A DNA stretch of 64,000 nucleotides from Protonemura montana (Eukaryota > Arthropoda > Insecta > Plecoptera > Nemouridae), in assembly GCA_947568835.1 (NCBI GenBank), contig OX387602.1:16977021-17041020 (forward strand), read 5' to 3'. A program made the position numbers and the translations under genes. Shown here piece by piece: positions 3,521 to 55,603 of this stretch. Within the stretch, counting starts at the first letter, position 1; each line of letters begins with the position of its first letter. The notes below the pieces were generated by a model. That model worked only from the letters and a program-made list of their open reading frames with translations, was not told the DNA's origin and did no database searches.

Positions 3521-6500
3521 GTAATTTCACCAGATTTACCCCTTACATACTTACAGTAGACACAAATTACAAGTGAACATGTTCCGCATGGGAAGACAGC
3601 TGACACGTTGCTAACCAGTCTGGTTGACTTAATTCTAATTGGAAATTATCTAACCAAAATGCCCGCATGTGCAGAACTAACCTGGTGGAAAACAGCCGTG
3701 GCAGATTCGCTCTTTCTTTGGGAACCATTTTAGGATTCAACAAAAGGGGGAACTCTTTCATGTACCGCGCCGATATGGGGGACGTTTGCATTTTGTTTAA
3801 ACTACATTGCAATTTGTGCAAACAGTTTTGTCGGGTTAACGCGGATCCCGTGTGAGGCCTGCAATGGGAAATCAGACATAATATATTTGTGTGTTTATAA
3901 TAATAACCAACCCCTAAACGTGAAACACGAAAGTCACATGAATTAGTGGCCGAGTACCCGAGCGTATCAGCATCTGAGAATTCGCGCTCGCAAACAGTGC
4001 ATTAATTTTGAGTTCACTCGTGGTAATTAATATGCAAAGTAAATCGGCGATCGCCGCCGCAAGCTTGCTGCCAAATTGGCGCTTCTGGTGCACACCACGG
4101 CGTGGGTCTCGGGGAGATGGGGTCGACGATAGCGCACTGCCCGGAAAATGGGCTTCGAGTAAACAACGCGTACTGGTTAGACCCTCCCTTCCGTAGAACG
4201 CCCAAAGCGACGCTCTCGTTCTGATAGCAAAACGCCACTCGATAATTAAGAATGGTTTTGTGAACTCAACTTTGTATATAAATTGTGATTTTCTCATTTC
4301 CGTCAATGGGGAAGCTTTTCCGTAATTTGGTCATATGGAGGATAGAGCGCATTGATATCGGAAAGTTAATACTGGTGTGACTCTAACGCGATGGTGGTGC
4401 CTTAATTGGATCAAGAACGAAATGAAAATTGGACGCTACGTAGACGTGACCATCGTATGGGTTATTGATTGCGGGGAAAAGCTGGAAAAGCTGGGATTGC
4501 GGAAAGGAATGATATGCATGCCGGGTGCTGGTTATTTGGCCACTCGGCGTGGTTTGTGCGTGCCCGTTACTCGCACGTGACTCCCCTGTATACGTGCGAG
4601 TGAATTTATAAACACGTTATCACGTTTTATCATCATTTATTACTGGCCGAATAATATAAAACAAAAAAATTATATAGCAACTTCTAGCGAAATGCATAAC
4701 ATTTTCTTCTGTACACATGCACTATATATATATATATATAAGCGTGACTTTACCACACAATGTTAGAAACACTCACGTCGCATTGTTAGAAACTTTGTCC
4801 AAGCGAACTACTTTTTGATTTTTCTAAACACTGTTTTTTCCTTTTCCCCTTCTGACGGACAGACGTAACAGGTAAGCCAGTGACACAGTTTCTACAAATG
4901 TATAGAAAGTCGTACACAATAACAGTTTGCCATGCTTATCAACCACCTCCAGTTTAAATAATAATGCGCTTTAAGATAGACCACACGATATTGACAACAT
5001 GCTACTTCATAAGTCTGCACATCAGATTTATATTCTTCTTTCCGACGGGCAAAACTTTACCGACCAAACAACTTGGTTTCCAACAAAAATCCATTTCGAA
5101 TTTTTCGAGCTTATACGTAACTGACACGAACCGAGTGCACTGCGAGGCGGAGAAGAAAATCCCCGCGGGGCAACTTGATTGGAAATAAGAATTCCGCCCG
5201 ACGAAATTGTCTAGCCAAGAATTTTTGGAAAAGCTCGTGATTGCATGGCACGCTCGATTTTCCACATTTAACTCATTTCTCAAGATCCGGTCGTGCATTT
5301 TCCCTTGGCTACAACAAAGCAGGCACCGGCATCCTGTCAGCAGTCGCCCGTCCGGCCACCTGATTACTTTGCAAACTTGATAATCAAATATGAAACATCG
5401 ATTGTCAGACGCCCTGACGCTAAAACGTCAACGTAGCTAAACGACAAAGACCACTGAGTTTGTGTTCCGTTTGTAACCACTGTTAAAAGAGTAGATTCCG
5501 TTGTAATCATTTTTCAATTTGCCATGGCCCGTCCCCTTTCATTGTGTGACGTGCCAGGGTGCGTGTCTCATTGCGTCAGGAGTCAGTCCCCTTGTGTCTC
5601 CATTACATAATCTGCCTTCATCGGAACAACATTCCAACACGTTGAACTATTTATGTACGGGAAAAGACAAGCCACTATGGAGGGCTGGTTTGCATAGTTT
5701 TCAATATCTTGATAAAGTCATTCCTAACGCTATGGTTTGAACCATTTTCCGAACTAAGAGTAAAAATGGGAGATCAGGCTGTTTGAAGACTCATGAGTTG
5801 CAAAAGATAGTGCTTCAACTGGAGTTAAAGTAGACTTTCTCGGTGTAAGTAACAACTAAAGGCCAGAGCTGGAAATGATTACAAAACCGGCGTAAAGCTG
5901 CACCGTTTTCGCAACTCAAAGCAGCGCTATAAAGTTGCAGCGAGCCAGTCAAGTTGAAAAGACGTTTCAGCCAGCCCTGTGCTTACACCGTGTACAAATC
6001 CCTTGCCCAAGTTCGAGCCTAGGGTTTGTTTGAAGTGCGGTGTGGGGTGGCTGCCGGCTGTCGAGCGAGAAGGCGCAACCGACGGCTTTTGACTCGGGTG
6101 CGGTTGTTTGGTACTTGCCAGGCAACAGCGTCTACATCTCCCGGGTTGAGGAGAACAGCGTCGCCGAGCGCGTCGGCCTCCGCGCCGGGGACACCATTCT
6201 GGAGGTGAACGGCACTCCTTTCAAGGGAATTTCACACGAAGAAGCACTGAAGGTAAGATGTCTTACTTATATTGGTGTGCCCAAGGGGAGGGTTACGATG
6301 GGGCTTGGGCCCGATCGAATGTGTCGATAATACAAAATTGTATTTCGTATCAGGCAGTAAACAGGAGCGTGGAGAAATCTGAAACCAAGTTATACCATTT
6401 GACGTTCTGTACCTTGCCTGGAGGTCGTGTGGTTTCAATGGCTGGCTTCATGGTAGTGCTTTTAGTGCATTACTAAAATTTCGCTCATATAGTGCCCTAC

Positions 6501-40990: not shown

Positions 40991-42023
40991 TATTTGGGGC
41001 AAAAATTTGAAAAAAAATATCAGAGCAAGAAATTTTTTTTGTAGCTGGATTATAGGACGATTGCAGAACGTGTTGATTGATTGATGCCCAAAAAAAGTGC
41101 AAAAGTGAAATGTGCGAAGTGAGAAAATCAAAGAAAGAGTAGACAAACGTAAGAATACTTTGGAAGCGACGGGACTTGGTCTCGGTACCCCCCGCAAGTG
41201 TTATCGTGTGGCACCTGCCGTTACTACGTGTTGCCGGCTCGTTTGCTCAGCAGACAGTTTAACAGTAAGGCTCTGACTATGTAGAGCTATACTATCATAT
41301 GAATCTACTTTATGAATATATCCTATGACTCTTCAATATAAGAGCCGATTTTTCAGTGTTCCGTTACAAACCTAACAGTCATTTAAAGAGTGTTTTTTTT
41401 TATTTATTTATTTATTTTTTTTGCTTGGCAACGGCCAATAAGAAAATGTTTTTGTTTGTTAACTTTAAGAGGCATAGTGGTAACAAAGGTGGTAAGACAC
41501 CATTACCACCATTTCTGGTTTTTTTTCAGCCGATTTCAAGGGCGGTAAAACTTACGCATACCTCAAATCGCTTGCGCTTAGATTTGTGGATTGGCGATAA
41601 AAGAAGCTACATATTATTACACCACAATAATCAGTTCGCTCGCTCGCTGCCTTTGAGGAAACACCGATGCATGTGCGCTTTAATTTTTGAATACAAATGA
41701 ATTTTTAGCTAAGCTGATTATCTACTACAATTTCTGAGCTTTCAAACAGTATTTTCATAATAAGGGATTAACAATAAGGAAGTTTTTTAAAACATTTTTT
41801 AACTTATAGTCATTTGATTATGTTGTCTTAATGTTGCAAATAGCCAGTGCTTGTTATCATTGAGACACGCTGCCCTGATGGCAACAGGTTGGTGGAAGTC
41901 GTATATAAACACTTGATTTTAGACTTGGTAAAAAAAAAAACATGAAAGTTATATTTCGGATCATCTCTCCCCATCCCTTCACTTGATCCATGTTCCAGCT
42001 GAGGGGCTTTAAAAAAAAAATAT

Positions 42024-42093
42024 GAGGTGCCGGGAAGCGAACTGCGGACCCTACGCATTGGAACTCACGACCATCCCACTGCGCTACGAGGAC
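42024..42093 (-). repeat. tRNA-like sequence 1
   Basis: The minus strand shows a perfect A box (TAGCGCAGTGG, 42086-42076), a degenerate B box (GTTCGCTTCCC), and an oligo-T run (42020-42011) placed like a Pol III terminator. Acceptor and T stems do not pair, so it is not a working tRNA gene. Confidence 0.55.
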
Positions 42094-42489
42094 ACATATG
42101 CTGTCATTGATTTGTTATCAATATCCAAGTCAATAAAACAAGATGTAAATAAATCACTTCTAGCAGTAATATTTATGTGTGAATCCTGATGGGTAGGCCA
42201 CTCATCGTACACGTGTGCACTGAGGTCGTGTTTACAGTCCAGGCGTTGGGTGTGCAGTCACTTCAATTTCCACTCAAAAAATATTGAAAAATCAATGGAC
42301 GTTTTTTACGTTTCTTACGTTTATTCTTGATTTTTGAAGATTCGCCCATACTGTGGTCTATGGTGTAGTTTGCACCCCCGAACACGATAGGCTATTATGG
42401 GCACGATTCCGTTATTTTATAGCTTCAAGGTTGGCAGCTCAGCAAGGTGGGTACACGGGTTACCGACCGATGGCCGTGATTTATCGACA

Positions 42490-42700
42490 TTTTAATTGAT
42501 CAAGTACATTTGATATCCCGCAGATTGCGTTTGCGATGACTTTGTGCTTTAACTCGACTGCTGGTTCGGTGATACTTGTTTGGTATGGTTGACCAGGGGA
42601 CTTCACTGCGAGCAACGGGGTTCGACTGGCGTTCCTCCAGTCGGACTTCAAGGCTTGCATTTTCGCGTTAGATCGTGGCAACTGGTGAAAGCCCATTTTT
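42490..42700 (-). repeat. Dispersed repeat, HQLPRS family copy 1
   Basis: Minus strand shares CACCAGTTGCC(A/G)CGATCTA with the + strand at 44.73 kb. In translation both show G(F/Y)HQLPRS followed by a (N/D)AS(R/H)T.LL block, suggesting decayed protein-coding repeat DNA. Confidence 0.5.
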
Positions 42701-42806
42701 TGGAGTGGCCGCGTGCCTCAGCACTGCTTGGTGTTGGGGTCCGGTCCGGCATTTACACATCGTGTAGAAGCGAAACCTTCTCTCTCTATTAGCGCATGGT
42801 TGATAT

Positions 42807-42839
42807 GGTGGTGGTGGTGGTGGTGGTGGTGGTGGTGGT
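42807..42839. repeat. (GGT)n microsatellite
   Basis: About eleven GGT units. Confidence 0.9.
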
Positions 42840-43213
42840 ATTAATGTTGGTAATGTTGGTAGTTTTAGTGCTGTTGGTGGTATTAATACACGTAAATTTC
42901 GTTGCTTGTGATAATGTTTGTTACTTTCTGTATATATGTCGTATGATTATATATTATACTTATAATTGCGAATAAATTATGTATATTTTCATTTTTCCCC
43001 CTTTTCCTACTTCTTCTTACAAATTTACTTTATAGAATTTTTCGTACTTACGTTACATTTCAGTAACAGTACCCATCTTTTCATTTAGCGTTCCCCACCA
43101 TGGCCAATATTGTTTCGTCTATGTTATCACCCCCTGGTAGCCAGGCTAGGAACTAAAACACAATTTGAATTTTTATTCTTGCCCTGGAGGATGATTGGTG
43201 TGATTAAAAAAAG

Positions 43214-43289
43214 ATGTAGGCAACGAGGATCGAACGCAGGACGTTTGATACCTGATGCAACCACATAAACCGCTCGACCACAAGACCCG
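43214..43289 (-). repeat. tRNA-like sequence 2
   Basis: Minus strand: perfect A box TGGTCGAGCGG (43280-43270, tRNA-Leu/Ser style), B box GTTCGATCC (43235-43227), then T7 at 43212-43206. Stems are degenerate. Confidence 0.55.
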
Positions 43290-43575
43290 CTCTCCACGGT
43301 TTTTTGGGATACAAAAACTGTTCAACTGTGACAACTCCGTCAAAAAATCCGAAAAAATCTCAAACACTGCCTACATGATTTTCATTAAAAGATATTTCGA
43401 TGAAACATTATTAACATCAGCTTCAATATTGCCCAACATCGTACAAAATAAAAATACGTTCGAAGTCTTGTACAGTTTACTCATCGTGGATCTTTCACTA
43501 TGTAGGAACAGACTGTCGTATAACACCACTTGGACACCCAGGACGACGGTGCCATACTCTGGCGCTGGCCCTTAG

Positions 43576-43857
43576 GTCTAGCATCAAGCGTATAGGAACG
43601 ATTATAATTAGTGTTACGCATCATCAGCGCCACCTGTTGACAGGATTTTGTACTACACTTTGGACAAATATGTTGATATTTTCCTGCTGTATTTTCATAG
43701 TTATTTTCCGATTAGTTAATGAATTAGATTAAAAATCAGACTTGGAAAATGTCTTCAATTATTACAAGTCCAGAGTATAGTACAAAATCCTGCCAACAGG
43801 TGGCGCTGATGATGCTTAACACTAATTATAATCGTTCCTATACGCTTGATGCTAGAC
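43576..43857. mobile_element. MITE-like element with ~89-bp terminal inverted repeats
   Basis: The left end GTCTAGCATCAAGCGTATA and its right-end complement continue as matched arms for about 89 nt with about four mismatches (43576-43665 and 43857-43768). The internal part is about 100 bp, AT-rich and non-coding. I cannot define a target-site duplication with certainty. Non-autonomous DNA transposon is the best reading. The right end lies 12 bp from the hairpin array. Confidence 0.8.
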
Positions 43858-43869
43858 GTAGGAGCCCGG

Positions 43870-44138
43870 GTGCGTGAGCGACTGGCGCTCCGCGCCAGTC
43901 GCTCACGCACGCTGCTGGGCCCTGGCGCGGAGCGCCAGGGCCCAGCAGCGTGCCGGCGCGCCCGTGCACCTGAGCGCGCTTCGCGCGCTCAGGTGCACGG
44001 GCGCACCGGTGTGCGTCCAAGCGCGCTCCGCGCGCTTGGACGCCCACTCTTGCGCGCTCACGCGCGCGAAGCGCGCGTGAGCGCTACAAAATTGCGGAGC
44101 GCGACTGGCGCGAAGCGCCAGTCGCGCTCCGCAATTTT
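43870..44138. repeat. Array of six perfect GC-rich hairpins
   Basis: Six consecutive perfect inverted repeats: 43870-43910 (19-bp stem), 43911-43949 (18), 43958-44004 (22), 44013-44043 (14), 44054-44084 (14) and 44088-44138 (24). Every loop is exactly 3 nt (TCC, GGA, TTC, TCC, GAA, GAA) and every apex is GCGC-NNN-GCGC. Spacers are 0-10 bp. Stem sequences differ but reuse short blocks (GCGACTGGCGC in hairpins 1 and 6; GCGTGAGCG in 1 and 5). The open frames reported across it are a by-product of palindromy. Not a CRISPR array: no common repeat and no spacers. Confidence 0.97.
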
Positions 44139-44195
44139 CGTGGTATCTACACTGTGCGATCAGAAAAAAAAAATAAAATGTGTGCCACTGCAGTA

Positions 44196-44284
44196 GTTGT
44201 GCTGACGGGATTCGAACCCGGGACCCCGGCAATCTCATGATTATTCACAAGAGGTAGTGCCTTGTACCGCACGACCACGCGGAC
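44196..44284 (-). repeat. tRNA-like sequence 3
   Basis: Minus strand: A box TGGTCGTGCGG, long variable region, perfect B box GGGTTCGAATCCC with a 4-bp T stem, then an oligo-T run with one A (44174-44164). Acceptor stem not paired. Transcription from it would run towards the hairpin array. Confidence 0.6.
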
Positions 44285-44383
44285 ATCTAGTTACACTGGC
44301 ATTTTTATGGTATATAATTTCTTCAGACTGCAGCTACCATATGTGAATACTTTGAATGTCGTATTCCAATAATAAAATATCCT

Positions 44384-44463
44384 GTCGGTGAGCGGGATCG
44401 AACCAGGTCACACTGTAGCTAGATGGTTCCGATGTAACGACATGTCCATTGTGCTACGCAGAC
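44384..44463 (-). repeat. tRNA-like sequence 4
   Basis: Minus strand, 80 nt: A box TAGCACAATGG, B box GGTTCGATCCC; the acceptor ends GTCTGCG and CACCGAC pair at five of seven positions, the best of the cluster. Anticodon arm unclear. Confidence 0.55.
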
Positions 44464-44689
44464 GGTCGCCCCTGCTGTGGTAAACTGAATATATTTTAAT
44501 TTCATATCTGATGTCCCTGTTTACCGGGTTGACTATAGGCACATGTCACTGACGGCACTCAATGTATACTACGTTTGGGAGTCGCATTCTTCTTTGCGTT
44601 TCAGTGAACCATCAATTAAGAAATTCAAGATATTATGACCGACTACGACCGACTTACGCAGCGAGCAAGAATTGGACCTGACCCCCGCA

Positions 44690-44850
44690 CCAAGTAATGC
44701 AAGGGCAATCGTCCACTCCAAAGATACGGGCTACCACCAGTTGCCGCGATCTAGCGTGAAAGTGTCAGCTGATAGGGCCCTCTGCAGGGATGCGAGCCAC
44801 ACCCAGTTGCTTGTTTGTCGTTTTTTATTTTTGCCTTCTTATCCGACCTC
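44690..44850 (+). repeat. Dispersed repeat, HQLPRS family copy 2
   Basis: Inverted relative to the copy at 42.5 kb; shares the CACCAGTTGCCGCGATCTA block and similar translated residues over about 30 codons. Confidence 0.5.
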
Positions 44851-44935
44851 GGCAGCATGGAGATCGCTTCACACTAAATCGCCTCTGCCATGCACTATCA
44901 AAGATTGTGCAAGCTATGTCGTGGAGAACAAAAAG

Positions 44936-45013
44936 CGGAGCGGACAGGACTCGAACGCGGTCACATCCTAATTGCTCTTTCGAGGAGCGACTTTTCCAAC
45001 CGGCCATCGAGAC
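44936..45013 (-). repeat. tRNA-like sequence 5
   Basis: Minus strand: A box TGGCCGGTTGG, B box GCGTTCGAGTCC, T5 shortly downstream. Stems degenerate. Confidence 0.5.
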
Positions 45014-45181
45014 GAGATAATTTCCGATGGAACAAAGAGATACATGAATAGCAGAAGACGACTACAGTGTAATAATGAAAATAGTCAATAATACTTTGAG
45101 AGTTTCGATGGATGAACGAGCGATGCAATATTTGCAGCATTCAATGAATGCCAGTCGCCACTTGATGAAGAACAAAATGAG

Positions 45182-45260
45182 GATCGGGCAGGATTCCAAC
45201 TCGAGATATTTAAGCAATGTCTCCAGGAAGAAGTGGCCGTACCTCACGGCCACTGAGACG
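45182..45260 (-). repeat. tRNA-like sequence 6
   Basis: Minus strand: A box TGGCCGTGAGG, degenerate B box GAGTTGGAATCC, TTTTG downstream. Confidence 0.4.
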
Positions 45261-45393
45261 TGTTGCTATGCCAGAGGAAATAACATATACTTGAGTAGCA
45301 GCTGGCGGGGATCACGGTACACCATCGAGAAGAGATGTTAGTTTTCTCTGTACAGATGAATACATATCCAGCAGTGTTACACACATGTGACTT

Positions 45394-45475
45394 ACCTCCT
45401 TGGAACCAGCGACCCTCTGCACCCCACCCCGAGAGCGATCTTCACTCGCCGCCGAATGGACGCTACGAAGACCGG
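45394..45475 (-). repeat. tRNA-like sequence 7 (very degenerate)
   Basis: Minus strand: partial A box (TAGCGTCCATTCGG) and partial B box (CTGGTTCCAAGG). Confidence 0.3.
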
Positions 45476-45542
45476 CGAGAGTTGCATGACAATACTTTAA
45501 CAATCTTGGTAGGTGATTGATTCTTAGTTAAAAATAGTGCAC

Positions 45543-45600
45543 CAAGCGGGATACGAACCCAGCCCCGTTTATCCTCTGTTCCACTTTCATGTACCTTTTG
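45543..45600 (-). repeat. tRNA-like sequence 8 (3' half)
   Basis: Minus strand B box GGGTTCGTATCCCGC followed by TATTTTTAA; no clear A box. Confidence 0.35.
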
Positions 45601-46750
45601 CAGGAAGTAAATAAAACAAGATATAAAGAAATCACATCTAAAGGTGACTTTTGATGATGAAACAATGCAATGTTGCTATAAATACAAGAGAAATGGGTGG
45701 AAGACCTCAGTGAATTAAGAACTTCGGGGTAAACTAGTGTAATTGAACACTTTAATCGCGCAATGATAACGACGTAGCGTCCAGAAGACGACCCGTCGTT
45801 ATTTTTTTTTTTTTATTTATGTCTTTAAGAGTTTTATGTTATGTTCATATTGATTTTAAATTATTGTATCTTATATTTTCCCGTCATTAATGATTTTTGA
45901 AGCATATCTTATCTTTTCGCACTGAATAAGGTAAACACGCTTACTACATGGTAGTATTGTATTACCACCCCATAGGGATGAGAGAGTTGGTGATAAAAAT
46001 TTCCTACACGTATAGTGTTTGCCATTCAATAAGCATTAAACCCATCAACTTTAAAAGATAAAAATAAACAAGAGTTAAAAGTTTGGAGACGGTTTGTTTG
46101 TCAACCTTTGACAAAACTGTAAATCTAATTTCTTTCCTTTATGACATTTACTTGGGAGTGCAAATACAATATTGGGCAACAATCCTTCCAGCGGCGGGTT
46201 TTAATATGTCCAACTTAATTTATGAGACACGTCCCCATGGTTACACCTAATCAGATACTTCTGTTTTCATCTAAACCTGCTTATTTAACTGGCATTTAGC
46301 ATTGTGAAAACGGTGAGAATAGAAATGGAGAAGTTCGGCTGAAATGTAGGTATTTTTCAGGGTAATTTTGTGCTTTACCGCCGCACGGGTAATTCTTGTC
46401 GGATCGCCTTTTTGATGGTAGTTTTGGATTCCTTGTGCAATTTTGAGTCGATATAGGTGTGGCAACTTGTGTAGCGACGGCTATTTTGGGTGTAGTTGCT
46501 GTTTGAATTTGATGGTTTGTTGCGTTTTGGTCGGGTTGTACTGTGCCGAATGGCGACTATCTGACATGTGGTGGTGTGTTGGTGGTGTGCGATCATTGAT
46601 GCCAACTGTTTGGTTTTCTGGAAATTTCCAGAATTTCTTCTAAGTGTTTTCAAAAACATCTTCAAATATGGCTGTTTTTCCAAGTTTGACCTTGATTTTT
46701 GGAGGTCACATGTGCGGCGGTTTAGCACAATTTTACCTTTTTCAGAAAGG
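45601..46750. other. Intergenic stretch, one unexplained frame
   Basis: AT-rich. A 148-codon minus frame (46375-46821) has a Lys/Arg/Ser/Asn-rich composition like decayed transposon ORFs, but no domain is recognisable and its start lies in the neighbouring SINE copy. Confidence 0.35.
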
Positions 46751-47000
46751 CATCCAGGAAGGTGCAACTCGAACAGCAGGATTTCTCCACAAATCCATGC
46801 AGTCGAGTATTTGATAAGCAAGGCTTATGAAGTCGCTGTACTAACTTTCATTCCTCCAACTTCTCTCCCGAACATAACTGTTCATGTGTATGATGGTCAC
46901 CCATCCAATACCTGACCCAGCGCAGTGTTGCTTAACGTCGGTGATCTCACGAGAACCGGTGTTTCCAGCACGCCAAACCGTTCGGTGTGACGATTCGAGG
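46751..47000 (-). mobile_element. 5S-rRNA-derived SINE, best-preserved 5S head
   Basis: On the minus strand the head reads ACCGGTTCTCG, GATCACCGACGTTAAGCA, ACACTGCGCTGGGTCAG and GTATTGGATGGGTGACC, matching animal 5S rRNA through A box, intermediate element and C box. The body then matches the 40.07-kb and 47.7-kb copies; the 3' part is missing. Confidence 0.85.
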
Positions 47001-47164
47001 AGGGCTCGTAAGCAATTGGATCCGCTGTGTTACTTGATTTGGTCAAGAACTCACATCTAACAAATGCTAACATAGTTAAAATGAATCTAATTAAACATCC
47101 GCAATTAAAGTACGAGAATTTGCAGTTGTTTAGCATCTGCATGCCTGGAAAACATTTGGTCTGT

Positions 47165-48863: not shown

Positions 48864-50549
48864 ATGAAGATGACGGATGGTGATGGAAGTGCATCTGCAA
48901 TGGTTAAAGATATCGAACTTTTAAGTGTTATAGAGCTCAAGGCTGAACTGGACAAAAGGGGTGAGTCTAAAGTGGGTTTAAAGGCAGTTCTACTTGAAAG
49001 GTTGAGAAATATCTTATCACAAGATCTTGACAGATCTGTAGAAGAAATGTTAGCGGCAACACCTTGCTCTGAATGTGAGCAATGTGCAGTTTGGAAACGG
49101 CTAGCTGATAATACCGAGCGTGAACTGCAAACTACAAGACGCCTTATTAACGAGATGGAATTACGCTTCAAATTAGTCGAAGAATCTAGTCATCAAAAGC
49201 AAGTTTCGTATGCTAGTATAGTTCGAAATTGTGTCAAAGATGGCGGGAAATTTGATTACTCAAAACATGAAGCAACGAATGGGAAGTTTGAATCACCAAC
49301 TGACGACGAAGTATACGATGTAGACGATGTAGACGAAGATGTCCATGAAGCAAACGATCGGCGATCTGACGATTCTAAGTTCGTTAGCTTCCCGTCACTG
49401 GTTAAAGAACTAAATAAGCAGAAGAATCAAGTGAGTGGTGATCAGAGAGGGAGCTGGTATGATGTCACCAGAAAAAAGTGGAAATCTACACAACGGAAAA
49501 CTAAACACTTTGGATTTGTGGGTGATTCTCCGACCATACCCACAAGTGAAGATGGACCGCTCGATAAGACTTTAAAACGGCACATGGATACACCTCAACT
49601 GGTCGTTCATGAACTAATGGGAGATCTGTTCAGCCAGACAGATGCGTCCTATTCCCTCGGCCACTGTGTGTCCGAGGACATGCTCATGTCCCGCGGAATA
49701 GCGAAAGAGTTCAAATCTCGATTTGGTAGATTAGATGAGCTCATGGCCCAGAAGAAAAAGGTAGGGGAAGTGGCGGTTCTGAAGGAAGGATGTCGATACG
49801 TCTACTACTTGATAACCAAGAAACTAGCATGTGAAAAACCGAATATGCAGGACTTCATTAAAGCTGTGGAAGCCATGAAGAATCATGGTCTAAAGAACAA
49901 TGTGAATAAAATAGGAATACCTCGTTTAGGTAGCGGTCTGGACCGCTTGGAATGGAGGGCAGTCAAAGCAGCTATTGAGAAAACCTACGAACATAGCCAG
50001 GTGGAAATCATAGCCTTCCATCTACCGCCACCCACTATCAAGCGATCGAGCCTAGTGATTGGTGACTCGCTACTCCGCCATGCAGCTACAGAGATCCGCA
50101 TAGGAGGAGTTGGTACAGCAGTCTTCCCAGGAATAAGAATGGGTGAGATATCGAAAAGACTCCATTACCTAAAAATGCAAGGTGAGAGATTCAGCTCGAT
50201 AGTAATCCATGCAGGGACTAACAACGTTTTAAGAGCTAGATCCCCATGCGAAATAGCCAATGACCTGAAGACCGTGATAGAGGAGGGAAAAACACTGTTC
50301 CCCTCAGCCAACTGGGCCGTCAGCGGGGTTCTGTATAGGAGAGATGTTCAAGACAGGTTTATCCAAGCAATCAATCAATGCATAGAATCAGCATGCCAGG
50401 AACAGGGATGGAGGTACGTTGATCCAAACTGCTGGGTCAATAACGATGACCTGACAGTGGACGGACTCCACTTGAATCGAGCAGGATCAAGGAAGCTGGG
50501 AACGCTAATGACCAAAGTAGCTAAATCTCTCAAGAACCAGGGAAACTAA
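48864..50549 (+). CDS. LINE ORF1: SAP - macrodomain (TARG1-like) - SGNH hydrolase
   Basis: 561 residues, uninterrupted, ATG at 48864. A SAP-like helix-turn-helix DNA-binding segment covers about residues 19-52. A Cys cluster CSECEQC lies at 68-74, followed by a likely coiled coil to about 112 and an acidic linker near 150-170. Residues about 245-397 match the macrodomain of TARG1/OARD1, the ADP-ribosyl-glutamate hydrolase: GDLF, CVSEDMLMSRGIA, GEVAVLK, YYLITKK, GSGLDRLEW. Lys319 and Asp360 correspond to the catalytic Lys and Asp of TARG1 and have the same 41-residue spacing. Residues about 395-558 form an SGNH/GDSL hydrolase with Ser402 in GDSL, HAGTNN at 449-454 and Asp533/His536 in DGLHLN. 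Esterase domains are known in CR1/L2-type ORF1 proteins; a TARG1-type macrodomain is not something I know from LINEs. Confidence 0.9.
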   Translation: MKMTDGDGSASAMVKDIELLSVIELKAELDKRGESKVGLKAVLLERLRNILSQDLDRSVEEMLAATPCSECEQCAVWKRLADNTERELQTTRRLINEMELRFKLVEESSHQKQVSYASIVRNCVKDGGKFDYSKHEATNGKFESPTDDEVYDVDDVDEDVHEANDRRSDDSKFVSFPSLVKELNKQKNQVSGDQRGSWYDVTRKKWKSTQRKTKHFGFVGDSPTIPTSEDGPLDKTLKRHMDTPQLVVHELMGDLFSQTDASYSLGHCVSEDMLMSRGIAKEFKSRFGRLDELMAQKKKVGEVAVLKEGCRYVYYLITKKLACEKPNMQDFIKAVEAMKNHGLKNNVNKIGIPRLGSGLDRLEWRAVKAAIEKTYEHSQVEIIAFHLPPPTIKRSSLVIGDSLLRHAATEIRIGGVGTAVFPGIRMGEISKRLHYLKMQGERFSSIVIHAGTNNVLRARSPCEIANDLKTVIEEGKTLFPSANWAVSGVLYRRDVQDRFIQAINQCIESACQEQGWRYVDPNCWVNNDDLTVDGLHLNRAGSRKLGTLMTKVAKSLKNQGN

Positions 50550-53356
50550 TAGGAAGCAGAGGAATTATCCCCCCCAATTTCAGCATTACAATACTCCAAG
50601 TTAACTGTAGGAGTATTATTAATAAGGGGGTTAAATACCAACATCTGATCGACATCCATAACCCAGATGTGGTAATTGGTACTGAATCGTGGCTGAACGA
50701 AGAAATCTCAGACAACGAAGTATTTGGAAGAGACTACATCGTCCACAGAAGAGACAGAGGAAGCAGAGGAGGAGGCGTCTTCATAGCAGTGAAGTCAACA
50801 CTACCAAACTATGGACTGTGGGTCGACGAGACATACGAAATGATCTCAGTGAAAGTAACTTGGGATAAAGCAAACATACAAATAATTGGTATATATAGAC
50901 CTCCTAGAGAGGACTTAAGGATTATAGATAAACTTGATATGTACCTGAGGGACCGTAGCTATAACGGAAATTGTACTACTGTGATAGGCGGAGATTTAAA
51001 TATGCCAAAGTTAAAATGGGATGGAACCATATTAGGGAGTAAGGGAGAACAAGACTTGTTGACAGAATTTATACACAACAATGATTTGGTGCAGGCCGTT
51101 CAGGAAGGGACCAGGCAATGCACAGCAGATAAATGTAACTTACTGGACATATTCCTAGTGCACCCACAGGAAGCGATCAAGTATTGTGACACTGTTGACG
51201 GTATTTCCGATCACAAAGCCGTCGTACTAGAAATCCGGGTTGGTGGGGAAGGGGGGGTCACGAAGACTAGAGCCCCAAAAATAATTAAACAATACAAAAA
51301 TGCAGATGTCCAGGGAATTAGAAACTATCTTGCACATTCATTTAATGACTGGATGTCCTTAGAGACGGATGATGTAGAGGATTATTGGCGGGAATTTAAA
51401 ATCATTGTAAAAATGGCAGAAAAGGAGTTCATCCCAACTAAAAGGTTGCAACGCAATCCTGACCCTATCTATTATACTACAAAAATAAAGTTGCTGAAGA
51501 GAAAATGTGCTAGGCTTTAGAGAAATAGGAAATTTAATAGCATTGTATTCAAGGAAAAATCCCAAGAACTATTTAGACTTAAGAAGGTAGCACTAAACAG
51601 CTATATGAAGAATTTACTAGAGAAAGAAGGAGAAGGACAAGTCTGGAATAAATTTTATAAATACATAAACCAAAAGAAGGGAAGCGTTAACAAGATACCC
51701 ATGCTAGTGAAAAACAATGTACAGGCAATCTCAGATCTAGAAATAGCGGCAATGTTAAACTCACAGTATGCAAGCGTGTTCGGAGAGAGAGAGAAATTTG
51801 ACAGTAGTCAGGTAAAGAATGGAGAAGGTGAAAGTTTTTCAATGAGTTGGGACAGTATATTGAGAGCAGTTCAGGGGCTTAAGAAAAACAGATCCCCCGG
51901 TTTGGACAAAATAAGTAATGACTTCCTTAAACTAGCAAGTAAAGAGATTGCACCTTATCTACTGATACTATTCCAAATCTCCATAAGCTACCACCAAATA
52001 CCATTAGATTGGAAACAAGCGTGTATTATTCCCATACACAAAGCAGGGAGCAAAGACAAACCAGAGAACTATAGGCCTATCAGTCTGACAAGTAGTGTGT
52101 GTAAAGTTGTAGAGACCCTAATCTCTAAATATATTCGACACGAGCTCGATACCAAAGGCACACTAGTATCAGCCCAGCATGGATTCAGAAAATCCTACTC
52201 TTGTGATACTCAATTAGCGGGCTTGATCCAAGACTTGACAGACATAGTTGATGGACGAGGGGAAACAGATGCAGTTTTGATTGAATTTTCCAAAGCCTTT
52301 GATGTGGTTCCCCATAAGAGACTCGTAGAAAAAATTAACAGACTGGGAATTGATGAAAAAATTGTCACCTGGATCGATGAATGGCTAACTGGTAGAACAC
52401 AGAGAGTCAAAGTAGGAGAAAATTACTCTGACGAGCTTCAGGTTACGTCAGGAGTCCCACAAGGGAGCGTATTAGGCCCGCTACTGTTTATTATTTTTAT
52501 CAATGATATAGGTGACAATATAAACTGTAAAATCAGATTATTTGCTGACGATTGCATACTATACAGTGAAATCAAGGACAGTGATGACTCCCATAAATTC
52601 CAAAGGAATATACATGAGATCGAAAAGTGGGTTGGAAAGAACAAAATGAAACTTAACTCCACCAAGAGTCAATTGATAAAATTTACGAACAAAAAGAAAG
52701 CCAATTTTTATCAATATATGCTTAATGACGCAGTACTACAATATGTAGACAAATGTAAATACTTGGGAGTACACATCACAAACAATCTACACTGGAAAGA
52801 ACACATAACCACTACAATTAAAAAAGGAAACAGTAAATTGAGCTTTGTAATGAGACACCTTAAGAAAACTAGTTGGGAAGTGCGAGAGAAAGCCTACACA
52901 AGTATAGTCAGACCTACGCTAGAATATGCTGCTATCATATGGGATCCTTACACACAGCAGCTCTCAAAAGCAATTGAAAGGGTTCAAAGACAAGCGGCAA
53001 GGCACGTACTTCGAAAATACGGTCCGAGGCAAAGTCCAACAGAAATGATTGCAGACTTGGGATGGGAATCGCTTAAACAGAGACGAACTGAGGCGAAACT
53101 GAACGGCTTGTACAAATCAGTTGTGGGGTATAAGTCCTGGGGAGATATTGCTAGGAGGCTGGAGACAGCACAAGACCGCGGAAGATCGGACCACCCTAAG
53201 AAGATGCTGGAAAGGGGCTACAACACAGATATAGGAAAATACTCCTTTCTAGCAGTCAGTGTACGTGCATGGAATCGTCTCCCAAGGGAATTAGTGGATC
53301 CCATAGCAGATAATGTCAACAAATTTAAAACCCAAATTAAAATTCTAAAATTCTAA
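50525..53356 (+). pseudogene. LINE ORF2: APE endonuclease and reverse transcriptase, one stop
   Basis: The frame opens after a TAA at 50522, overlaps the ORF1 stop, and has no ATG before the endonuclease starts near 50582 (ITILQVNCRS). Endonuclease blocks: GTESWL, GIYRPP, GGDLNMP and SDHKAVVLEI. An amber codon at 51518-51520 interrupts the frame; reading continues in the same frame. The reverse transcriptase follows with the fingers block NYRPISLTS, HGFRKSYSCDTQL, motif B SGVPQGSVLGPLLF, and motif C LFADDCILY. Motif A reads LIEFSKAFD, with Glu (52283-52285) where the catalytic Asp normally stands. A C-terminal segment with KYLGVHI, EYAAIIWDPYT and VRAWNRLP is complete. Probably inactive in cis. 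Confidence 0.93.
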
Positions 53357-54912: not shown

Positions 54913-54961
54913 CTAGGAGCAAGACAAGATTAGTTGGGAACTAATCTTGTCTTGCTCCTAG
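54913..54961. repeat. Perfect 23-bp-stem hairpin with 3-nt loop
   Basis: CTAGGAGCAAGACAAGATT continues to a GGG loop (54936-54938) and returns exactly to 54961. The sequence after it (AGCAAGACAAATATAGTTG) resembles the left arm again, as left by a template switch. Confidence 0.95.
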
Positions 54962-55603
54962 CAAGACAAATATAGTTGAGAAATATAAGTGGTTTGCATT
55001 GCAAAAAAAATGAATACAATTCCCTGACACTTTTACAAAGCTGCTTGTCTAAATAGCTAACCCAACGCACTGTGCTGGAGAGCATTGGAACAAATAAGCA
55101 GCAGCTAGTCAAAAAAGCCAACCTGTTGTATATGAGTCAACAAAGTCGTTTGCTGGGTGCCAGGCGCCGGTGTCTTCACGGCTGCAAGGAAGCCACTGGG
55201 TGTCGAGTTCGACGCCGCCTCCGAGGACTTGACGTATCAATTGATTTAGTAATGTCACATATTTTGCCAGGGATAATATTTTGAAATTAGTAACATACTA
55301 ATAATGTTGTGCAAATGCAATAAAAATTGCAATGAGAATGCAATGCTCTCGGTAATGTAAATAATGTGTTTTACTTTCAAAATTGCGTCTTTTGTTATGA
55401 ATTGTGTCTCGAAGTCTAAATCAAGACACTACTAGCAATTCCCACGCGTACACACTTCTGAGTCAGTGTATTATTATTATTATTATTAAGGTGTTGATAT
55501 CTCCTTGTGTGGGTATCATGTGTTGTCACTGGTGTACCTCAATAACAGGCCTCGTTAACGATGGGGGTGCCAGGCAGGATAATCAAAACCCGTCTTCAAT
55601 TGT

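Follow-up and report, generated by a model that had tools for sequence, protein, structure and literature searches.

The six short perfect hairpins at 43870-44138 of the Protonemura montana window (the whole 64,000-nucleotide stretch analyzed here, G000:C1:16977021-17041020) belong to a repeat dispersed through the nuclear genome, as a module whose short DNA hairpins undergo concerted rewriting. Among its copies the arms change in a coordinated manner, loops become inverted, and mismatches lack a wobble signature, all of which can be read directly from the copies; the best explanation, and in our judgment a probable one, is recurrent template switching at DNA hairpins, aided by a stable C-GRA-G turn.

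The sequence-only reading that drew attention to this locus had described six perfect inverted repeats with stems of 14 to 24 bp, 3-nt loops and a common GCGC frame. When the window was scanned for perfect inverted repeats with arms of at least 10 and loops of 0-12, all six were recovered, as they were by a repeat search, and the scan bore out stem lengths, loops and frame as well:

43870..43910, no strand assigned: hairpin 1, 19-bp perfect arms, loop TCC (GGA on the minus strand)
43907..43953, no strand assigned: hairpin 2, 22-bp perfect arms, loop GGA
43958..44004, no strand assigned: hairpin 3, 22-bp perfect arms, which in several further copies reach 27-28 bp, loop TTC
44013..44043, no strand assigned: hairpin 4, 14-bp perfect arms, which elsewhere reach as much as 22 bp, loop TCC
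44054..44084, no strand assigned: hairpin 5, 14-bp perfect arms, loop GAA
44088..44138, no strand assigned: hairpin 6, 24-bp perfect arms, loop GAA

Hairpins 1 and 2 have 4 bases in common, and the inner 11 bp of hairpins 1 and 6 are near mirror images. Besides the array, the window holds three more perfect hairpins with arms of at least 10; five random first-order Markov windows yielded 0, 0, 2, 0 and 1 hairpins of that kind, and five other such windows of the same size contained no perfect hairpin with an arm of at least 14, a control by which a chance origin of the array is rejected. An assembly slip is also unlikely, because near-full-length copies stand at 35 or more other places in the genome. 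Farther along, 54913-54969 contains a perfect hairpin of 23 bp (loop GGG) and next to it an overlapping one of 10 bp (loop CCT), making a zigzag of fold-backs with an apex other than the array's.

When the genome (258 Mb in 34 contigs) was searched with the 501 bases around the array, at least 36 near-full-length matches were found at 78-100% identity, the window included, a copy number that is a lower bound with 40 of 498 candidate matches scored. Left out of the copies were L044 and L045, which begin at hairpin 6, the rearranged L046 (67%), and L047, which has the right flank only. Long copies were represented by 20 loci fetched at 8.5 kb, and these delimit a considerably larger unit:

41767..45640, plus strand: shared internal repeat part, about 90-96% identical and present wholly or largely in the 20 other long copies

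Allowing 2 mismatches, the left end CAGTGTCGGACTGGC occurs in 14 of these 20 loci, three of which also carry the right end GCCAGTCCGACACTG; the window copy has neither of the two CAGTG... ends. An 8-bp target duplication surrounds two of the three loci with both ends (L017, 6290 bases, and L019, 5582 bases) and is absent from the third, L015. Terminal CAGTG/CAGNG repeats together with 8-bp target duplications make up what we take to be a hAT-type format, and the repeat is like non-autonomous hAT transposons in its ends and, in L017 and L019, in the duplication; these two loci contain no long reading frame, their longest stop-to-stop stretches being 137 and 134 aa. It differs from such transposons in that four of the 20 loci (L013, L017, L025 and L027) contain the left end a second time, internally, where the shared stretch stops on its right side, and the element is therefore composite or nested. 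The array is an internal block of a dispersed repeat that is probably either non-autonomous and hAT-like or composite, and we know of no hairpin array as a feature of the hAT superfamily.

Concerted rewriting shows in the covariation between arms, scored in 35 of the 36 copies (L019 was excluded for its expanded hairpin 5). Standard pairs fill 98.6% of 3975 pair cells, and 25 of 119 pairs have changed on both sides in some copy. Both-sided changes occupy 86 cells, as against 15.4 +/- 3.3 after shuffling that ignores the relatedness of the copies (0 of 500 shuffles as high) and no more than 7 once the partner column has been displaced by 1-3; further pair types number 43 versus 36.5 +/- 2.1 shuffled, a value equalled by one shuffle in 500. 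Parsimony on a tree built from the flanks (742 columns without the array, 9 of 33 nodes below 70% support) gives 51 direct changes from one Watson-Crick pair to another and 80 single-arm breaks, where exchange between copies would inflate the count of 51. A count that does not depend on the tree is that of double changes private to one copy: five are strict Watson-Crick replacements (in L028, L042, L027, L026 and L034) and a sixth has one letter that recurs in L041, set against about 0.09 expected by chance (P of at least six = 5e-10).

Some changes involve more than one pair. In hairpin 4 of L029/L030 three adjacent pairs have changed as a block, a version for which the genome has no other source within 2 mismatches. 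Two close pairs have changed in hairpin 3 of L042, a version matched at up to 3 mismatches only by a one-arm relative at the place of L041 and by its own reverse reading; the one-arm state of one of these two pairs is present in L041, a distant copy. Hairpin 5, which has several multi-base arm versions, is absent from eight copies (L036-L043) and half missing in L035. In L019, at about 4250-4330, it is enlarged by GCGCGCTC repeats and has two GAA apices, and this expansion is a sign of slippage at the hairpin.

The innermost part of the stems behaves differently from the remainder. Private changes in the inner 7 bp amount to 2 in 2905 cells versus 76 in 7900 G/C sites of the flanks (P=2e-8), with no private double change among them, and the outer arms mutate at the flank rate (43/5556, P=0.26). 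Copying from arm to arm keeps pairing and not sequence, so that the core must be constrained or else corrected from other copies.

Loop orientation provides a second record. Of the 207 loops in the 36 copies, 204 are TCC, TTC, GGA or GAA. Hairpin 2 has GGA in 18 copies, TCC in 7, TTC in 6 and GAA in 5; hairpin 3 has TTC in 27 and GAA in 9; and hairpin 4 is found with each of the four words. No inversion was seen in hairpin 1 among 35 scorable copies, in hairpin 6 among all 36, or in hairpin 5 among the copies that carry it. On the flank tree, and omitting the loops TCA, CAA and GAC, parsimony places 11, 5 and 5 orientation changes in hairpins 2, 3 and 4 (21 in all) and none in hairpins 1, 5 and 6. 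Under a model of equal rates that spreads 21 flips over six hairpins, three or more hairpins stayed free of flips in 0 of 200,000 draws, which is to be read with the fact that hairpin 5 occurs in fewer copies than the others. With tips shuffled, the counts for hairpins 2, 3 and 4 are 10.8, 8.0 and 11.8: the orientation of hairpin 2 is without tree signal, whereas hairpins 3 and 4 have some. Frequent flipping would leave such a missing signal, and exchange between copies would do so just as well. Distant copies also have complex versions of hairpin 6 in common (L022/L028; L024/L033, L035 and L043); given these and the signal-less hairpin 2, exchange between copies probably occurs, and the tree-based counts of flips and double changes are consequently uncertain and, in the event of exchange, too high. 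Close relatives differ in orientation: between L025 and L031, with flanks that disagree at 8 of 735 sites, hairpin 2 has turned from GAA to TTC, and this hairpin also differs in orientation within the pairs L038/L039, L012/L017 and L023/L026. A step from TCC to GGA entails three simultaneous base changes, and other loop words occur in just 3 of 207.

Seen genome-wide, the apex is indeed a recurrent motif, as the sequence-only reading had proposed should be checked: the 258 Mb contain 905 exact GCGCTYCGCGC sites versus 183 for the reversed pattern, with GCGCTRCGCGC at 126 versus 205 for its control. When the frame is bordered by A or T on both sides the apex falls to background (20 vs. 19), and its role as a bare 11-base seed is thereby rejected. 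More than half of the sites, 532 of 905, share one longer form with a tandem G-A, and the same form with an inverted loop has 0 sites; a few of the 532 lie in arrays and some in tandem satellites, so they represent fewer than 532 independent events. The cores encountered were CTGGCGC, including variants like CCGGCGC and CTAGCGC, and GCGCGC preceded by A or C. Together with its partner arm, AGCGCGC occurs at 82 sites versus 0 for the control, and by coordinates these belong to the 36 copies, to L046 or to related arrays (L078-L083). As one longer form dominates and the bare apex is at background, descent from a few hairpin cores explains how different stems come to have the same apex, and since the apex merely caps conserved cores, there is no need to invoke repeated de novo seeding. 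What had appeared to be a puzzle, different stems under one apex, is thus accounted for by common descent of the cores with outer arms diverging in concert. The earlier proposal of a snap-back process survives in part: copying of arm onto arm best fits the variation among copies, with its coordinated arm changes and inverted loops, whereas repeated independent seeding on a bare GCGC-NNN-GCGC is not supported, given the background level (20 vs. 19) and the single form of 532 of the 905 sites.

We further looked at 78 apex sites (loci L048-L093 without L070, which is the same place as L064), a nonrandom sample drawn mainly from the first-listed places on C1 and from picked places. In 51 of these the hairpin consists of seven pairs followed by two tandem mismatches, G-A/G-A in 50, with the GAA or GGA loop on the strand of the G-A letters in every one of the 51; at least 11 perfect pairs are present in 9 of the 78, and fewer than seven in 13. 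Single hairpins of other repeat families resemble hairpin 6. A second array, L079 on C3, has five perfect hairpins whose order and cores suggest correspondence to hairpins 1, 2, 3, 4 and 6; the presumed counterparts of hairpins 2 and 3 have quite different arms that are again perfect, and those of hairpins 1 and 6 have their loop orientation unchanged. L080 is like L079 and partly decayed, and L078 and L081-L083 are decayed further. Tandem G-A hairpins are also found on C1 at about 28.85-31.15 Mb, spaced some 1.71-1.79 kb apart in satellite-like arrays. A tip-deleted hairpin 6 (AAATTTGCGGAGC, 6-nt loop) is present in L064, L068, L069, L072, L073 and L075, sited where other repeats cease to share sequence around the array, such that loss of the hairpin center and a junction between families coincide.

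Read on one strand, nearly every loop of the array is GAA or GGA, framed by C and G and resting on G-C pairs. Mini-hairpins of d(GCGAAGC) DNA are reportedly the work of Hirao and co-workers. DNA hairpins with GNA loops have extraordinary stability, with a melting temperature of 78 C for GCGAAGC (PMC4686876). The ViennaRNA DNA parameters assign -5 kcal/mol alike to GAA/GGA, to TTC/TCC and to two control loops, and the argument from stability therefore rests on the cited oligonucleotide work (PMC4686876). The likeness to those mini-hairpins lies in a C-GAA-G or C-GGA-G apex over G-C pairs on one strand, whereas the published ones are synthetic oligonucleotides, and mainly GAA and GGA occur here among the GNA loops.

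The array is bordered on both sides by sequence that had been read as functional or mobile units:

43567..43866, no strand assigned: imperfect inverted-repeat unit (the "MITE" of the earlier reading), terminating in CTAGACGTAGGAGC directly before the array
44200..44290, minus strand: B-box-like sequence adjoining the array, with no tRNA found by ARAGORN or Rfam

The inverted repeat of the former is real, its arms (43600-43665 and 43768-43833) being 94% identical, and similar sequence flanks hairpins in other repeat families. Each arm contains one of two words, AGCGCCACCTGTTG at 43626-43639 and CAACAGGTGGCGCT at 43794-43807, which we take to resemble the CTCF binding motif and which have similar counterparts in L063 and L064. 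The stretch 43619-43815 on the minus strand matches Rfam MIR841 at 43 bits (E 1.4e-6; threshold 200); it is a long foldback and no member of that family. On the other side, the supposed tRNA-like Pol III unit is visible as the motif GGATTCGAACCCGG at 44208-44221 and does not extend to a tRNA: ARAGORN found no tRNA gene in the window, Rfam listed no tRNA over 41700-47100 with E up to 5, and a tRNA gene beside the array is accordingly rejected. An Rfam match at 44206-44220 is a 15-base tmRNA fragment with E 0.06, far under its threshold. Farther along, 46866-46986 on the minus strand is 5S rRNA-like (Rfam, 54.9 bits); of the 20 loci fetched at 8.5 kb, 10 contain parts of the stretch around it, and it probably belongs to a 5S-derived repeat. 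The remains of a non-LTR retrotransposon occupy 48864-53356 on the plus strand, where an upstream frame, in which Pfam recognizes a SAP domain and a GDSL/SGNH hydrolase, precedes frames for endonuclease and reverse transcriptase; what separates SAP from hydrolase presumably is a macro domain by its looks, although Pfam did not find one.

Mismatches offer a direct view of whether pairing is maintained at the RNA level, G-T and C-A being wobble on one or the other transcript. The private single mismatches come to 32 entries, and with one double entry and one gap-facing entry dropped, 30 are distinct and scorable: 5 G-T, 8 C-A and 17 other. The mutation spectrum of the flanks predicts 20, 25 and 55%, or 6.0, 7.5 and 16.5 of 30, and thus there is no excess of wobble among the private mismatches on either strand. 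As the classes match the flank spectrum, selection for wobble in RNA is disfavored. No Rfam family scores above threshold in the array, the only one that does being the 5S rRNA outside it, by which a microRNA or other known RNA is rejected.

In the mechanism that we propose, DNA of the element would become single-stranded during replication, repair or transposition and a hairpin would fold, at which the polymerase could switch template. A within-strand switch would copy one arm onto the other, keeping complementarity and leaving the loop unchanged, and a between-strand switch would turn the loop around as well; new mutations would thus be either erased or written into both arms, yielding near-perfect hairpins with drifting outer arms, in a process that the stable C-GRA-G turn on one strand would aid. 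The polymerase step, its strand and timing, and the help from the turn are what we infer from the copies. The footprints listed for template switching are several compensatory changes at once, changed stems and fully inverted loops, where intra-strand switching keeps the loop and inter-strand switching turns it (PMC8794818); in the array we find changes that keep pairing, changes of several pairs at once and, in hairpins 2, 3 and 4, inverted loops. A comparable activity is that of DNA polymerase theta, which extends a folded-back 3' end in vitro and has been proposed to do so in end joining (PMC11292364), the likeness being same-strand copying from a folded 3' end that gives rise to inverted repeats. 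Some observations speak against switching. Unbiased copying should write near-loop mutations into both arms, and the inner 7 bp are nearly unchanged, so that the core sequence itself is acted on by something; moreover, hairpins 1, 5 and 6 never invert, even though 1 and 6 are long and perfect. The signal-less orientation of hairpin 2, the hairpin 6 versions common to distant copies and the identical ViennaRNA energies of all loops weigh on the same side.

A possible but rather doubtful account is ectopic gene conversion or recombination, in which a broken hairpin is repaired from another copy or from any hairpin of identical core, so that versions become mixed among copies. That palindromic cores make invasion blind to orientation and so generate the inverted loops is a corollary we regard with the same doubt. 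The 905 apex sites are possible donors, hairpin 6 versions are common to distant clades, the orientation of hairpin 2 lacks tree signal, and the inner 7 bp are uniform, as conversion would have it; the private double changes, the L029/L030 and L042 versions without other genomic source, the 532 tandem G-A sites against 0 loop-inverted ones, and the lack of inversion in hairpins 1, 5 and 6 argue the other way. A DNA fold selected for transposition or replication, and kept by stepwise compensatory mutation with no copying step, is unlikely. It would make sense of the inner core and of the fixed loop orientation in hairpins 1, 5 and 6, as well as of the 532 sites with the GRA loop on the G-A strand and 0 inverted, which descent alone may explain; it sits poorly with three-base loop inversions and three-pair changes that lack intermediates, and with private doubles that would mostly have arisen after insertion, when a single copy is presumably unselected.

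Least probable is that an RNA composed of short hairpins is under selection, be it a precursor of small RNAs or a chain of stems transcribed from the Pol III-like unit. Short perfect stems and strong covariation are what such an RNA would display, but loops invert, wobble is not in excess on either strand, the array has neither an Rfam family at threshold nor a tRNA beside it, and individual transposon copies are not expected to be under selection of this type. Selection, the option raised in the sequence-only reading, is possible for the inner core and the orientation of hairpins 1, 5 and 6, while an RNA-level signature is absent. A more speculative reading, toward which we remain skeptical, is that the element uses a strand-specific DNA fold that perfects itself and acts in some single-stranded phase: one strand would carry the GRA turns, joined in the sister families by the tandem G-A mismatches (532 exact sites, 0 with an inverted loop), hairpins 1 and 6 would keep their loop orientation because they are read, hairpins 2-4 would flip freely, and the arms would be rewritten at each passage. 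Parvoviral ends show flip and flop, to which the flipping of the inner hairpins 2-4 would then be somewhat alike. If true, the state of a hairpin would be inherited by copying rather than through selection on each base pair.

A literature search over open-licence papers found no described array of this kind, and the closest systems share individual traits with it. Repeated hairpins, sometimes in tandem and some of them G+C-rich, are known from mitochondrial hairpin and double-hairpin elements, whose stems are conserved and whose loops vary (PMC2800124), whereas here the outer stems vary in concert and the loops are four words; a mitochondrial double-hairpin element is rejected, with the loci lying on 13-33 Mb contigs and four loop words accounting for 204 of 207. 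A further parallel is provided by Monttinen and Loytynoja (2022), who proposed template switching in rRNA and microRNA genes, and whose hairpins are alike in concerted arm changes, multi-pair changes and loop inversion on unchanged arms (PMC8794818). Unlike the cases of that study, ours concerns neighboring hairpins within a nuclear repeat found at many places, and three of the six invert commonly while the other three do not.

The origin and upkeep of long perfect stems has puzzled evolutionary biologists, and the most telling footprint of template switching, compensatory change together with loop inversion, was reported there to be "extremely rare", next to 69 loop-only clusters (PMC8794818). 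With at least 36 copies in which flipping and nonflipping hairpins are neighbors, and with flanks that serve as an internal yardstick, all within one genome, the array offers a natural record of what is probably arm-to-arm switching by the copying machinery. Switching thereby becomes measurable in a single genome, in terms of its rates, tract length, dependence on arm length, and strand.
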